From assembly GCA_011525845.1 (NCBI GenBank), contig WYBP01000018.1:1-64000 (forward strand): a stretch of DNA of 64,000 nucleotides. Direction: 5' to 3'. The stretch comes from Gemmatimonadaceae bacterium (GTDB lineage Bacteria > Gemmatimonadota > Gemmatimonadetes > Gemmatimonadales > Gemmatimonadaceae). Each line of letters begins with the position of its first letter. Positions within the stretch are counted from its first letter, which is position 1. Below are positions 5,747 to 28,837 of the stretch, in pieces. A program made the translations under genes and the position numbers. Below the pieces are notes generated by a model that saw nothing but the letters and a program-made list of their open reading frames with translations, was not told where the DNA came from and did no database searches.

Positions 5747-5789
5747 TGTGACAGTCGCGTTGCGTCTCCCTCGGGCCGCGCGTTATAGT
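5747..5789 (+). promoter_or_regulatory. Promoter A with TGTGACAGT box, upstream of surface-protein paralog 1
   Basis: TGTGACAGT at 5747-5755, four bases, TTGCGT at 5760-5765, 18 bases, TATAGT at 5784-5789. The same layout with identical spacing occurs at 6912-6954 upstream of paralog 2, which is why it is proposed as a shared promoter/operator. The box also loosely resembles a sigma-54 -24/-12 element (TGACAG-N5-TTGC) but lacks the invariant GG. Confidence 0.6.
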
Positions 5790-5918
5790 ATCATCGGGGT
5801 GCCCCGCTCGGGACGCACCGGGTTCGGAGCGCGATGTGCGGGGCTGATGCCCCGCGGGTGCCCCGCGCGGCAGGCCTGTAGTGGATCGCTGCTGCACTTC
5901 TCTGCGGAGGGATGGTCG

Positions 5919-6866
5919 ATGGATCTCGCGAGACTCAAATCCGTTCGACTGCGCCTGGCGATGCTCGCGGTTCCCGCGTCGTTGCTGGTGAGCGCGTCCT
6001 GCGGCGAGGCGGAGATCGTGAGTTCCCCGACGAAGGTGGCGGGCAAGGTCGTGGCGCCGCCCCCCGTCCCGCCGCCACCGCCGCCCCCGGCGCCGCCGCC
6101 GGCCGGCGTCGCGTTCCAGTCGCTCTGGTCGAACGCGGGCACGTCGATCTCGGCCGTGACGGATGGCGGACTCTGGCCGATCCTCGCTTGCGGCACGGTC
6201 TACCAGAACGTGATGTCGGTGGTGGCCGGGGCGCCGCTGGGGTTCACCGAGACGCCGAACGTCCTCCGCGTGCGGATGGCCGGGCAGGACTGCGCGATGC
6301 TCCAGCGCGACGGCATCATCCCGGCCAGCACCACGCATTGGGGGCGCTTCTACATCCGGAACGACGAGTTCGGGACCTCGAACACGCATCCGGTCGCGTA
6401 CCACAACGTGCACGGGGCCGACCCGATCCAGGCGGTGCCCCTGCAGCGGTTCGCGAACATCCAGAACGGGTCGTGGCAGATCGGGATCCCCACCGCCGGC
6501 AACTATCCCTTCAATCGGTATTACACCCCCCTGCTGCCCAACGGGGTGTGGTACCGCTTCGAGTGGGAGATGCGCTATCTCACGGCGACGACCTTCCGGT
6601 TCTATCCGCGCATCTACAACCTGGCCGATTCGCTGTTGTACGACGCGTCGAACCTGCGCGTCGAGGGCGGCTCCTCCACGCTCCAGCAGTGGTACGACCA
6701 GGGGAACTTCAACTCGCTCGGTGGGAACGGCAGCGCAGGCACCGCGGCACAGCTCGCGCGCAACTTCGGACTCGGCAACGAGGGACCGTCCTCGGCCTCG
6801 AACACCGGCGGTTCCTGGTACTACGCGAAGTTCGGGCTCAGCACCTCGGGGTGGCTCGGACGGTGA
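5919..6866 (+). CDS. Secreted lipoprotein with C-terminal domain shared by three paralogs (paralog 1)
   Basis: 315 residues. The start is the ATG at 5919, preceded by GGAGG at 5906-5910; an upstream in-frame ATG at 5748 sits inside the promoter and is rejected. A signal peptide ends in a lipobox (LVSASC, C28). A proline-rich linker (about 47-62) leads to a ~250-residue domain beginning near AVTDGGLWPILACG and ending SWYYAKFGLSTSGWLGR. The domain is rich in aromatic beta-strand-like segments (GVWYRFEWEMRY, FYPRIYN), suggesting a jelly-roll or lectin/lyase-like fold, but I do not recognise the family. Its coding DNA is nearly identical in places to the 7227-9494 gene. A role in binding or trimming the locus's polysaccharide is inference only. 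Confidence 0.8.
   Translation: MDLARLKSVRLRLAMLAVPASLLVSASCGEAEIVSSPTKVAGKVVAPPPVPPPPPPPAPPPAGVAFQSLWSNAGTSISAVTDGGLWPILACGTVYQNVMSVVAGAPLGFTETPNVLRVRMAGQDCAMLQRDGIIPASTTHWGRFYIRNDEFGTSNTHPVAYHNVHGADPIQAVPLQRFANIQNGSWQIGIPTAGNYPFNRYYTPLLPNGVWYRFEWEMRYLTATTFRFYPRIYNLADSLLYDASNLRVEGGSSTLQQWYDQGNFNSLGGNGSAGTAAQLARNFGLGNEGPSSASNTGGSWYYAKFGLSTSGWLGR
6255..6334 (+). repeat. 80-base exact direct repeat, copy 1
   Basis: These 80 bases are identical to 8883-8962, within the shared C-terminal domain of paralogs 1 and 2. A second exact run of 59 bases lies a little further downstream in both genes. It indicates recent duplication or gene conversion. Confidence 0.85.
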
Positions 6867-6911: not shown

Positions 6912-6954
6912 TGTGACAGTGCGCTTGAACCGGGGCCCGACACCCCACTAGGAT
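6912..6954 (+). promoter_or_regulatory. Promoter B with TGTGACAGT box, upstream of riboswitch and paralog 2
   Basis: TGTGACAGT at 6912-6920, four bases, TTGAAC at 6925-6930, 18 bases, TAGGAT at 6949-6954. Spacing is identical to promoter A at 5747-5789. Transcription would begin near 6961, leaving a leader of about 265 bases before the ATG at 7227. That leader holds the c-di-GMP riboswitch and its terminator; together with the promoter these account for the 6867-7226 gene-free stretch. Confidence 0.6.
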
Positions 6955-7055
6955 TCATCGCGAAGGGACGGCGGCGGGAGTTCCCGCAGGCGTCCCGGGG
7001 CGCGATGGACCACCGGGTCAAGTGAACGGGGCCGCGCGTCGACAATGGAGAAAGC

Positions 7056-7142
7056 GCTGCTCAGAGCAAACCCGTCGAAAGACGGCGACGCAGAGCGACG
7101 GGGCTTCGGTGTCCAACACCATGCCAGCCGAGCCGCCAGCCA
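7056..7142 (+). promoter_or_regulatory. Candidate c-di-GMP-I (GEMM) riboswitch aptamer
   Basis: The leader contains AGAGCAAACC, then a stem CCGTC-GAAA-GACGG closed by the conserved GAAA tetraloop, then GACGCAGAGC. The 3' part is GGGGCTTCGGTG...CACCATGCCAGCCGAGCCGCC. These blocks follow the order and spacing of the class-I c-di-GMP aptamer (GCAAACC / CGAAAG / GACGCAAAGC / distal helix / tetraloop receptor). The element lies about 85 bases upstream of the start codon and about 95 bases after promoter B. Its 3' strand is shared with the terminator stem at 7130-7180. Recognition is by eye against the known consensus; a covariance-model score was not run. Confidence 0.8.
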
Positions 7143-7180
7143 TTCGGACCGCATCCTGGGTCTTGGCCGGCGGCTCTTTC
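7130..7180 (+). terminator. Riboswitch expression platform: terminator competing with aptamer 3' strand
   Basis: GAGCCGCC-a-GCCA (7130-7142) can pair with TGGC-c-GGCGGCTC (7164-7176), giving 12 base pairs around one mismatch, followed directly by TTTCGTT. The left arm is the 3' strand of the aptamer, so ligand binding should block terminator formation. This predicts an ON switch at high c-di-GMP. Further downstream CTCC (7206-7209) and GGAG (7214-7217) could form a small hairpin over the ribosome binding site. Confidence 0.6.
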
Positions 7181-7226
7181 GTTCCCGGCGGACCGGATGC
7201 ATCACCTCCGCGTGGAGAACGTTGCA

Positions 7227-9494
7227 ATGCGATACCTGTCCAAGCTGGTCAAGCGCCTCGCCCTGGGACGCATCCCGGTCGTGATCCTCCTCGCCGGCGC
7301 CGCGTGCATCGCCCCCGAGGGTGCGATCGACCCCACCGGTGACCTCCTCGTCGGTGAGGTGCGCCTCACGCCAGACTCCGCTCTGCTGCCCACCGGCCAG
7401 AGCCTGCAGCTGACGGCGGCCGTCCGCGACACCCTCGGCCACCCGATGCCCAACGAGACGGTCACCTGGACCAGTTCCGACACCGCGATCGCCGTGGTGG
7501 ATTCGCGCGGGATGGTCTCGGCGCGGAGCACCGGCGGCGTCGAGATCCGCGCTCACGCCCGCCGCGCCTCGGGACGCTCGCGGATCGTGATCGCCGCCCC
7601 CGTCGCGTCCGTCTCGATCACGCCGACCCAGCCTGCGCTGGTCCCGGGCGGGGCCGTGCAACTCACGGCCGTGGCCCGCAGTGCGACGGGCAGCGTGCTC
7701 GAAGGGCGGCCGGTGACGTGGTCGTCCACCAACACCAGCGTCGCGACCGTCAGTGCGACGGGCCTCGTCGTCGGCGTCGCGGCCGGACTCGCCACGATCA
7801 ACGCGGTCGCGGAAGGGGTGATGGCCGCGGCGTCGGCGAACGTCGCCAATCCATCCGTCTCGTCGGTGTCCACGCTGGCCGTCGTCTCCACCACCGACTC
7901 GAGCGTGACACTGCGCTTCACCGAGGTGAACGACGGCACCGGAGCGGCCGCCAACTACGAGCTGCGCGTCGGGTCCCCCACCATCTCGTGGGGGAGCGCG
8001 ACGGCCGTGACGGGCGGGAGCTGCCCCTCGCCGATGACGGGCACGGCGATCGGTGCGGTGCGCACCTGCACCGTGACCGGACGCTCGCCCAGCACCACCT
8101 ATCAGTTCCAGCTGGTGCCGTTCCGCGGCACCCTGGGTGCGGGGGCCGTGTTCGGCGCGCTGTCGAACGTGGTGTCCGCCACGACCGCTGCCGCGCCGCA
8201 GGCGGCGGTGGCCACGGTGGCGATCGCCCCGACGAGCGCGAGCGCCGTCGTGGGCGGCAGCACGAGCTTCTCGGCGACGCTCCGCGACGCGGCGGGGAAC
8301 GTGCTCACCGGTCGCACGATCACCTGGACCTCGACCAGCACCTCCGTCGCAACCGTGTCGTCAGCCGGCGTGGCATCGGCGCTCGCGGCCGGCTCGACCA
8401 CGATCCGGGCCACGAGCGAGGGCATCAGCGGGACCGCGACGCTGACCGTCACCGCGCCGTCGGCGCAGCCGGTGGCGAGCGTCACGCTCAGCCCGTCCAC
8501 CGCGAGCGTCGCGGTCGGGCAGGCGATGCAGTTCGCCGCGACCCTGCGCGACGCGAGCGGGAACCTGCTCACGGGCCGCTCCGTCACGTGGACCTCCACG
8601 GCCTCGGCCGTGGCGACCATCAACGCCTCCGGCAGCGCCTCGGGCGTGGGCGCCGGCACCACCACCATCCGCGCCACGAGCGAGGGGATCAGTGGGCAGG
8701 CCACCCTCACGGTGACCACGCCGGCGCCGGGCACGGTGCTCTTCTCGTCCGACTGGAACACGGCGGGCACGTCGATCGCCGCCGTGACCGACGGCGGGCT
8801 CTGGCCGATCCTCGCCTGTGGCTCGGTCTACCAGAACGTCATGTCCGTGGTGGCGGGCGCGCCGCTCGGCTTCACCGACTCCCCGAACGTCCTCCGCGTG
8901 CGGATGGCCGGGCAGGACTGCGCGATGCTCCAGCGCGACGGCATCATCCCGGCCAGCACCACCCACTGGGGCCGCTTCTGGATCCGCAACGACGAGTTCG
9001 GCACCTCGAACACGCATCCGGTCGCGTACCACAACGTGCACGGGGCCGACCCGATCCAGGCCGTGCCGCTGCAGCGCTTCGCGAACATCTCGAACGGCTT
9101 CTGGCAGATCGGCGTCCCGGCGGCCGGGTCGTATCCGGCGAACCGTTTCTACACGCCGCTGCTGCCGAACGGCGTCTGGTACCGGTACGAGTGGGAGATG
9201 CGATACCTGTCCGCCACCACCTTCCAGTTCTATCCCCGCATCTACAACGCCGCCGGCGTGCTGCTCTACGATGCGTCCAACCTGATGGCGGAAGGGGGCG
9301 GGCTCTCGCTGCAGCAGTGGTACAACCAGGGGGGCTACAACAACCTGGGCGGGAACGGCAGCGCGGGGACGGCAGCCCAGCTCGCGCGCAACTTCGGCAT
9401 CGGCAACGAGGGGCCGTCCGTCGCCTCGAACACGGGCGGATCCTGGTACTACGCGCGCTTCGCGATCAGTACCACGGGCTGGATCGGCCGGTAG
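7227..9494 (+). CDS. Multi-domain surface protein: Ig-like repeats, FN3-like domain and shared C-terminal domain (paralog 2)
   Basis: 755 residues. The ATG at 7227 is preceded by GGAG at 7214-7217; an in-frame upstream ATG at 7197 lacks this. An N-terminal signal/anchor segment (to about residue 27) is followed by two bacterial Ig-like (Big_2) repeats (about 44-122 and 127-205). Then come a fibronectin-III-like domain (214-320), two more Big_2 repeats (328-409 and 416-497, with matching TTIRATSEGISG ends) and the ~250-residue shared C-terminal domain (505-755). Big_2 stalks usually project adhesins or enzymes from the cell surface. Expression is predicted to be controlled by the c-di-GMP riboswitch in its leader. 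The C-terminal domain's function is unknown; carbohydrate binding or lysis is plausible from its neighbours. Confidence 0.82.
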   Translation: MRYLSKLVKRLALGRIPVVILLAGAACIAPEGAIDPTGDLLVGEVRLTPDSALLPTGQSLQLTAAVRDTLGHPMPNETVTWTSSDTAIAVVDSRGMVSARSTGGVEIRAHARRASGRSRIVIAAPVASVSITPTQPALVPGGAVQLTAVARSATGSVLEGRPVTWSSTNTSVATVSATGLVVGVAAGLATINAVAEGVMAAASANVANPSVSSVSTLAVVSTTDSSVTLRFTEVNDGTGAAANYELRVGSPTISWGSATAVTGGSCPSPMTGTAIGAVRTCTVTGRSPSTTYQFQLVPFRGTLGAGAVFGALSNVVSATTAAAPQAAVATVAIAPTSASAVVGGSTSFSATLRDAAGNVLTGRTITWTSTSTSVATVSSAGVASALAAGSTTIRATSEGISGTATLTVTAPSAQPVASVTLSPSTASVAVGQAMQFAATLRDASGNLLTGRSVTWTSTASAVATINASGSASGVGAGTTTIRATSEGISGQATLTVTTPAPGTVLFSSDWNTAGTSIAAVTDGGLWPILACGSVYQNVMSVVAGAPLGFTDSPNVLRVRMAGQDCAMLQRDGIIPASTTHWGRFWIRNDEFGTSNTHPVAYHNVHGADPIQAVPLQRFANISNGFWQIGVPAAGSYPANRFYTPLLPNGVWYRYEWEMRYLSATTFQFYPRIYNAAGVLLYDASNLMAEGGGLSLQQWYNQGGYNNLGGNGSAGTAAQLARNFGIGNEGPSVASNTGGSWYYARFAISTTGWIGR
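8883..8962 (+). repeat. 80-base exact direct repeat, copy 2
   Basis: Identical to 6255-6334; part of the duplicated C-terminal-domain coding sequence of the 5919-6866 and 7227-9494 genes. Confidence 0.85.
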
Positions 9495-27898: not shown

Positions 27899-28837
27899 TC
27901 AGGAGATCTGGCCTTCGAACTTCCGGATGGTCAGGAAGTCGGCTCCGGGGACATCAGAGCGCGACATCCGCATCGCCATCGACGCGCGCATGAGCATGTC
28001 GCTGGGCTCGATCGGCGCCTCGTGATAGTCGGGCACGGCATCGTAGCCGGCGGCCATGCGGATCCGCGGCTCGGTGCCGAGCGACCCGGCCGCCTGCGCC
28101 AGGCGCTGTGCGAGACGGATGGCGCCGGCCTCGTCCGTGTCGTGCGCGACCACGGCGAACTCCCCGGGTCCGAGCATCCCGATGGCATCGCAGGAGCGTC
28201 CGGAGTCCCGGAGCACCTTGGTGAGCGACGCCAGCAGCTCCGCGGAGGTCGACTCGGCGTCGTCCGCCATCGCGCCCTCCCCGAGCATCGGCGTGAGGAC
28301 GATGCAGGCGAACGGTTCCCTGTGCCGAAAGGCCTGTGAGCCGAGTTCACGCGCCCGGCGCGCGAGACCGCGGATGTTGTAGAGTCCCGTGCCCTCGTCG
28401 AGGAGGCTCTCCTCGCGCGCGTGGTCGACCTCCTGCTTGGCCCGCGTATAGGCGTCGAGCCGCAGCGGGAGTTCCTCGCCATCCAGCGCGGAGCCGATGA
28501 AGTCCCAGGCGCCGGCCTTCAGGGCCTCGAGCCGCTTCTGCCTGCTGCTGTGTCCGGGGCTCGTGATCAGGATCGGCGTCGCCGGGGACACGATCGCCTC
28601 GCTGCGCAGCTCCCGGCAGACGTCGAACCCGTCGCGGTCCGGGAGGTCGGTGTCGAGGATGATCAGGTCCGGGCGCGAGCTGCGCGCACGCTCGATCGCC
28701 TGCTTTCCCGTGTACGCCCGCAGTACCGCGTAGCCGTGCGGCCCCAGGATGCTCTCGAGGGACCGCGAGTGCCACTCCTGGCTGTTCGCGATGAGGGTGA
28801 GGGGCGGACGACGGGCACGGCCCGTGCGGTCGGTCAT
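27899..28837 (-). CDS. Receiver domain - degenerate GGDEF protein
   Basis: 312 residues. A CheY-like receiver (1-125) has phosphoacceptor D62 (IILDTDLPD). The GGDEF-like domain (about 145-300) has GPGEF at 223-227 where an active cyclase has GG[D/E]EF, and the usual metal-site residues are not evident. It is therefore probably not an active diguanylate cyclase and may act as a phosphorylation-dependent effector or c-di-GMP/GTP sensor. It sits between the Wzc and export genes, convergent with wzc, in a locus that also carries a c-di-GMP riboswitch. Confidence 0.82.
   Translation of the reverse strand: MTDRTGRARRPPLTLIANSQEWHSRSLESILGPHGYAVLRAYTGKQAIERARSSRPDLIILDTDLPDRDGFDVCRELRSEAIVSPATPILITSPGHSSRQKRLEALKAGAWDFIGSALDGEELPLRLDAYTRAKQEVDHAREESLLDEGTGLYNIRGLARRARELGSQAFRHREPFACIVLTPMLGEGAMADDAESTSAELLASLTKVLRDSGRSCDAIGMLGPGEFAVVAHDTDEAGAIRLAQRLAQAAGSLGTEPRIRMAAGYDAVPDYHEAPIEPSDMLMRASMAMRMSRSDVPGADFLTIRKFEGQIS

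Follow-up and report, generated by a model that had tools for sequence, protein, structure and literature searches.

The question raised by this locus is which cyclic dinucleotide is sensed by the leader of a surface-protein gene, and in which direction that leader switches the gene. The window, by which we mean the whole stretch of 64,000 nucleotides analysed here, comes from a Gemmatimonadaceae bacterium (contig WYBP01000018.1). A scan of all of it with Rfam 15 (cmscan) reports a single above-threshold match to any family. It is to the c-di-GMP-I model (RF01051), at 7055-7140 on the forward strand, and scores 56.1 bits (E 2.7e-8) against a gathering cut-off of 35 bits and covers all 87 model positions. 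The presence of the aptamer is thereby directly established, in keeping with an earlier sequence-only reading that had assigned the leader to the class-I c-di-GMP aptamers from the motifs GCAAACC, CGAAAG and GACGCAGAGC, all of which are present. The RNA class named in that reading stands; its choice of c-di-GMP for the ligand is not firmly established, given A20 and G48 in the pocket. We put a probability of roughly 0.6 on the joint reading that this is an ON riboswitch of a distinct A20/G48 sub-family of GEMM-I RNAs, with a pocket that has shifted from c-di-GMP towards 3',3'-cGAMP. The features on which the argument draws are as follows.

7055-7140 (+): GEMM-I (c-di-GMP-I fold) aptamer of the A20/G48 sub-family, from the RF01051 score and sub-family scans
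7056-7059 (+): P1 5' strand GCUG, pairing with 7137-7140; covariation at the equivalent pairs is seen across 115 relatives
7059-7062 (+): GCUC, predicted partner of GAGC 7093-7096 in the ligand-free fold, from prediction and conserved sequence
7065 (+): A at the ligand-discriminating position (Rfam position 11, Vc2 G20, Cd1 G11), from the cmscan alignment
7072-7085 (+): P2 hairpin with GAAA tetraloop
7092-7093 (+): A47, which is conserved and intercalates, and next to it G48, where most GEMM-I aptamers have A, from the cmscan alignment
7136 (+): equivalent of C92, which base-pairs with a G of the ligand, from the cmscan alignment
7137-7140 (+): P1 3' strand CAGC, common to P1 and the terminator stem
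7130-7176 (+): terminator-like stem-loop, 7130-7141 with 7165-7176, from folding; the same stem is found in six leaders of the genus
7177-7183 (+): weak U-tract TTTCGTT, from the sequence
7227-9494 (+): surface protein of 755 aa with four Ig-like (Big_2) repeats, from Pfam, and a lipoprotein-like N-terminus, by inspection

In the Vc2 aptamer, G20 recognises the first guanine of c-di-GMP. The RF01051 pocket is expected to have G at this position, which we take to be Rfam position 11 (a numbering then compared with the Cd1 and pilM papers), and the alignment places A7065 there. The other pocket bases, A47 and C92, are kept as A7092 and C7136, giving A-A-C at positions 20, 47 and 92. Each of the 14 aligned genus aptamers has A at position 20, and so do both GEMM-I copies of the genome. 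The second copy (G000:C4:24006-24086; L001 1501-1581 (-)) combines A20 with A48 and lies upstream of a STAS-domain gene. This STAS-type leader, with A20/A48, is conserved in the genus (L041, L042, L044-L048, L053); some STAS-gene leaders of the genus score best with c-di-GMP-I-GGC (RF03167), and a leader in L112 that resembles the STAS type has G20.

The controlled gene most likely starts at ATG 7227, with GGAG at 7214-7217. Pfam finds four Big_2 Ig-like stretches in its product (158.8 bits), matching the four-Ig-repeat surface protein described from sequence, and Pfam content likewise upholds the proposed exopolysaccharide locus: exopolysaccharide genes lie on both flanks and encode GT2, AlgX/SGNH-like, DegT aminotransferase, polysaccharide deacetylase, GT1, Wzz/BY-kinase and SLBB proteins. 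The C-terminal domain of the controlled protein has no Pfam match and is modelled by AlphaFold at a mean pLDDT of 34; weak polysaccharide-lyase matches are confined to other proteins under riboswitch control in the genus and are absent from this domain. The gene just upstream (5748-6866 (+)) encodes a C-terminal domain 85% identical to it over 252 aa, and no riboswitch was found before that gene. Among 76 proteins encoded downstream of sub-family aptamers, 56 contain Big_2 and 53 Big_1. A KL..RLA motif precedes the signal sequence in 30 of 108 A20/G48-controlled proteins under a strict pattern, versus 0 of 13 for G20 leaders; the motif is found in the window (7227-7310), L117, L123, L128, L147 and others, across Gemmatimonadota and in one Zixibacteria record.

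How far the pocket change extends was assessed across GTDB representative genomes with a pattern in which G48 is fixed and position 20 is free (GCAAAN5CGAAAGN5GACGCAGAGC). The scan returned 113 stretches with 121 G48 aptamers, 118 with A20 and 3 with G20. The change at the two positions is thus directly seen to be coupled, and A20 together with G48 defines a coherent sub-family of GEMM-I RNAs that is apparently unnamed. Over all gathered loci, unique aptamers number 124 for A20/G48, 92 for G20/A48, 13 for A20/A48 and 3 for G20/G48; these totals depend on the gathering route, unlike the coupling seen in the scan. The A20/G48 aptamers have A18 in 124/124 and G19 in 122/124, mostly preceded by CUC, a stretch that is A-rich in G20/A48 aptamers. 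Among 115 relatives, 99-110 have Watson-Crick bases at each of P1 pairs 1-4, with several compensatory pair types, and most of these pairs collapse when one strand is slid as a control. By record labels, the sub-family is found mostly in Gemmatimonadota, with members in Nitrospirota (including a complete Manganitrophus genome), Eisenbacteria and others; some soil-MAG labels (Chloroflexi, ANGP1, Armatimonadetes) may be misbinned, since, for example, L115 is nearly identical to L178. A full-text literature search for a cGAMP riboswitch in Gemmatimonadetes found none, within a coverage that leaves out the 2015 GEMM-Ib papers (Kellenberger, Ren).

The direction of switching is suggested by the stem that follows the aptamer. 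The segment 7120-7185 has a folding energy of -32.7 kcal/mol, whereas 200 shuffled versions average -21.5 (z -4.1) and none of them is as stable. Where a 12-base-pair stem ending in TTTCGTT had been described, the stem and the TTTCGTT are present and the pair count is corrected to 11 Watson-Crick pairs plus an A7138-C7168 mismatch. C7136, the C92 equivalent, pairs with G7170 in the stem, which also takes the P1 3' strand; the sharing of 7137-7140 (CAGC) between aptamer and stem was therefore rightly proposed. The stable stem and P1 are directly shown to be mutually exclusive. In length-by-length folding, from which the ligand energy is left out, the P1 form is less stable than the alternative by 2-3 kcal/mol until about 7165 and by about 18 kcal/mol after completion of the 3' strand. 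The stem itself is directly observed to be conserved in 6/6 leaders of the genus. Among 115 leaders of the sub-family, 77 have a downstream complement of nine bases around C92 with a T-run, versus 4 with a reversed target; by an independent criterion, a stem re-using the C92 strand with a T-run, the figures are 80 of 114 leaders versus 1 in the control. By its architecture the leader is thus well supported as a transcriptional ON switch; we infer the ON direction, as the sequence-only reading did, from a P1-exclusive stem that captures C92, so that ligand would favour read-through. A consensus promoter scan gave no match.

Hypr GGDEF enzymes make cGAMP and have Ser where canonical GGDEFs have Asp (PMC6456294; PMC9302825). 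They were sought with a spaced DNA motif combining a W-S-N codon (Ser, Thr and a few others) with GGDEF, for which a reversed-pattern control gave 0 matches; by inspection, the proteins found are MASE1-like or GAF-like GGDEFs. Across 395 Gemmatimonadota genomes, 34 have the Hypr motif, 50 an A20/G48 aptamer and 23 both, so that the sub-family is carried by 23 of 34 Hypr-positive versus 27 of 361 Hypr-negative genomes (Fisher p 1.3e-15). In one family, f2, the motif is found in 23 of 24 riboswitch genomes and, counted by genus, in 7 of 8 riboswitch genera (p 1.6e-4). In Nitrospirota (158 genomes), the motif is present in 6 of the 8 genomes with the riboswitch versus 44 of the 150 others (p 0.013). 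These p values take phylogeny into account through the genus count only.

Outside family f2, the Ser motif occurs in 0 of 26 sub-family genomes, and the further readable GGDEF domains of non-f2 sub-family genomes have Asp in 39/39; in each of 27 genomes, the GGDEF that best fits the Hypr profile likewise has Asp. The genome of the window belongs with these: it has no Ser-GGDEF, its seven readable GGDEFs all have Asp, and a search for a SMODS CD-NTase gave 0 matches, so that neither type of cGAMP synthase was found in it. An eighth, degenerate GGDEF joins a receiver domain to GPGEF (27899-28837 (-)). This response regulator lies inside the exopolysaccharide locus and is the only GGDEF-like match in the window.

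The choice of ligand has to be weighed against this mixed distribution. The simplest alternative is an ordinary c-di-GMP riboswitch that tolerates A20 and G48 and turns its gene on when Asp-type GGDEFs supply c-di-GMP. The good RF01051 score fits this account, as do the GGDEFs just described, which are of the Asp type alone in the window's genome and, as far as they could be read, in the other 26 sub-family genomes without Hypr. In the C. difficile Cd1 aptamer, mutation of G11, including G11A, caused no large change (PMC9262584); specificity is thus not set by A20 alone. Against it stand the strong coupling of A20 with G48, distinct from G20/A48 and sometimes found beside it within one leader, and the link between the sub-family and cGAMP-type synthases in two phyla. 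Moreover, c-AMP-GMP variants are reported to be marked by A at the position-20 equivalent, and affinity for cGAMP is raised in natural A20 aptamers: a variant from Desulfobacca binds c-AMP-GMP much better and c-di-GMP perhaps slightly less well (PMC9481103), which makes dual reading plausible. We regard the ordinary c-di-GMP account as possible, with the odds against it. The ligand of the sub-family as a whole would be cGAMP, to judge from its pocket and synthases. For the organism of the window the ligand may be cGAMP, c-di-GMP or both, the c-di-GMP assignment being unproven and cGAMP a serious alternative. Outside f2, the exclusively Asp-type GGDEFs suggest that A20/G48 reads c-di-GMP or both ligands, or that another source of cGAMP exists. 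A wider proposal, which we hold tentatively and at slightly less than even odds, is that A20/G48 forms a separate cGAMP-sensing sub-class of GEMM-I that would bring Hypr cGAMP signalling into Gemmatimonadota and Nitrospirota, in part through mixed tandems, with synthase-less lineages either using an undescribed cGAMP source or having returned to c-di-GMP.

Two further alternatives concern the expression platform. The stem might not be an intrinsic terminator in this genus, with ligand acting through Rho, pausing or mRNA stability, or with constitutive read-through. In all six leaders of the genus the U-tract is weak or absent despite the kept stem (TTTCGTT in the window), which makes the strength of termination in the window leader uncertain, and an intrinsic-terminator scan did not report the stem, whose long hairpin may be excluded by the scan's loop limit of 8. 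However, close relatives from other families have the same stem with long U-runs, the U-tract being strong in many relatives, and the ancestral design was therefore probably a terminator. We consider a non-terminator role rather unlikely, and an intrinsic terminator at the window leader plausible. It is also conceivable that G48 and the CUC serve the platform and not the ligand, with GCUC 7059-7062 and G48-AGC locking the pocket in the OFF state. The GCUC-GAGC helix (7059-7062 with 7093-7096) belongs to the predicted minimum-energy fold, and at least 3 of its 4 pairs can form in 112/125 A20/G48 aptamers versus 0/84 G20/A48 aptamers; such a helix would close the pocket when ligand is absent. 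The helix shows no covariation because both strands are conserved, the GAGC strand is part of the search pattern, and about a dozen aptamers with AAAAG in place of CUCAG retain A20 and G48, which makes this explanation doubtful. That G48 exists only to pair with a J1/2 C was rejected as an explanation, as about a dozen A20/G48 aptamers do not have that C.

In the preferred reading, an ON riboswitch with a pocket that we infer to have shifted from c-di-GMP to 3',3'-cGAMP, the ligand-free transcript would form the terminator stem when 7165-7176 captures C92, which pairs with the ligand, together with the rest of the 3' half of P1, and GCUC could pair with GAGC across the pocket. Binding of a cyclic dinucleotide would hold P1, block the terminator stem and allow the Ig-repeat surface-protein gene to be transcribed. 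In the organism of the window, a synthase that has escaped recognition may supply cGAMP as the ligand, or a dual-specific pocket may read c-di-GMP.

Leaders with more than one aptamer also recur in the sub-family. In mixed leaders an A20/G48 aptamer comes first and a G20/A48 aptamer follows 155-183 nt downstream (L031, L127, L130, L156, L167, L172, L179, L208, L215, L226), and A20/G48 repeats recur as well; L138 (1994-2338 (+)) has three successive A20/G48 aptamers, 157 nt apart, before one surface-protein-type gene. A further kind of mixed tandem is seen in the Clostridia records L120 and L225, where a G20/G48 aptamer lies about 88 nt before an A20/A48 aptamer. If A20/G48 and G20/A48 aptamers read different ligands, leaders that combine them would be AND gates that could need cGAMP and c-di-GMP together.

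Most descriptions of cGAMP riboswitches concern Geobacter, while Hypr synthases occur widely, and Tan et al. suggested that other bacteria contain cGAMP riboswitches still awaiting discovery (PMC8835794). The A20/G48 sub-family is a sequence-defined candidate of this kind: many of its genomes also encode a matching synthase, and its Ig-repeat surface-protein targets are coherent. It also suggests that an RF01051 annotation by itself can name the wrong second messenger. Among known systems, c-di-GMP-I aptamers such as Vc2 and Cd1 (GEMM-I, RF01051) share with the window aptamer the fold, the GCAAA/GACGCA core, the GAAA tetraloop, A47, C92, and surface and adhesion targets, but the window aptamer has A20 instead of G, G48 instead of A, and a J1/2 of CUCAG instead of the A-rich type. 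The c-di-GMP-I-GGC family (RF03167) belongs to the same clan as RF01051, under which the window aptamer is reported, and differs in having G-G-C, not A-A-C, at positions 20, 47 and 92. The c-AMP-GMP riboswitches (GEMM-Ib; Geobacter pilM and Gs1761) share A at the specificity position. They also share the ON-switch design: in the pilM switch, capture of the ligand-pairing C75 by the terminator has been measured (PMC9262584), which corresponds to C92 (7136) here. Unlike them, the sub-family has G48, a different J1/2 and a mainly Gemmatimonadota distribution, and, unlike their hosts, the genome of the window has no Hypr GGDEF. The pilM gene is a known cGAMP-riboswitch target in Geobacter (PMC9262584), and pilM is also among the Nitrospirota targets of the sub-family; there, A20/G48 switches (L201, L216, L163) precede pilM and a protein with a CxxCH heme-type motif, an arrangement that resembles the Geobacter cGAMP regulon.
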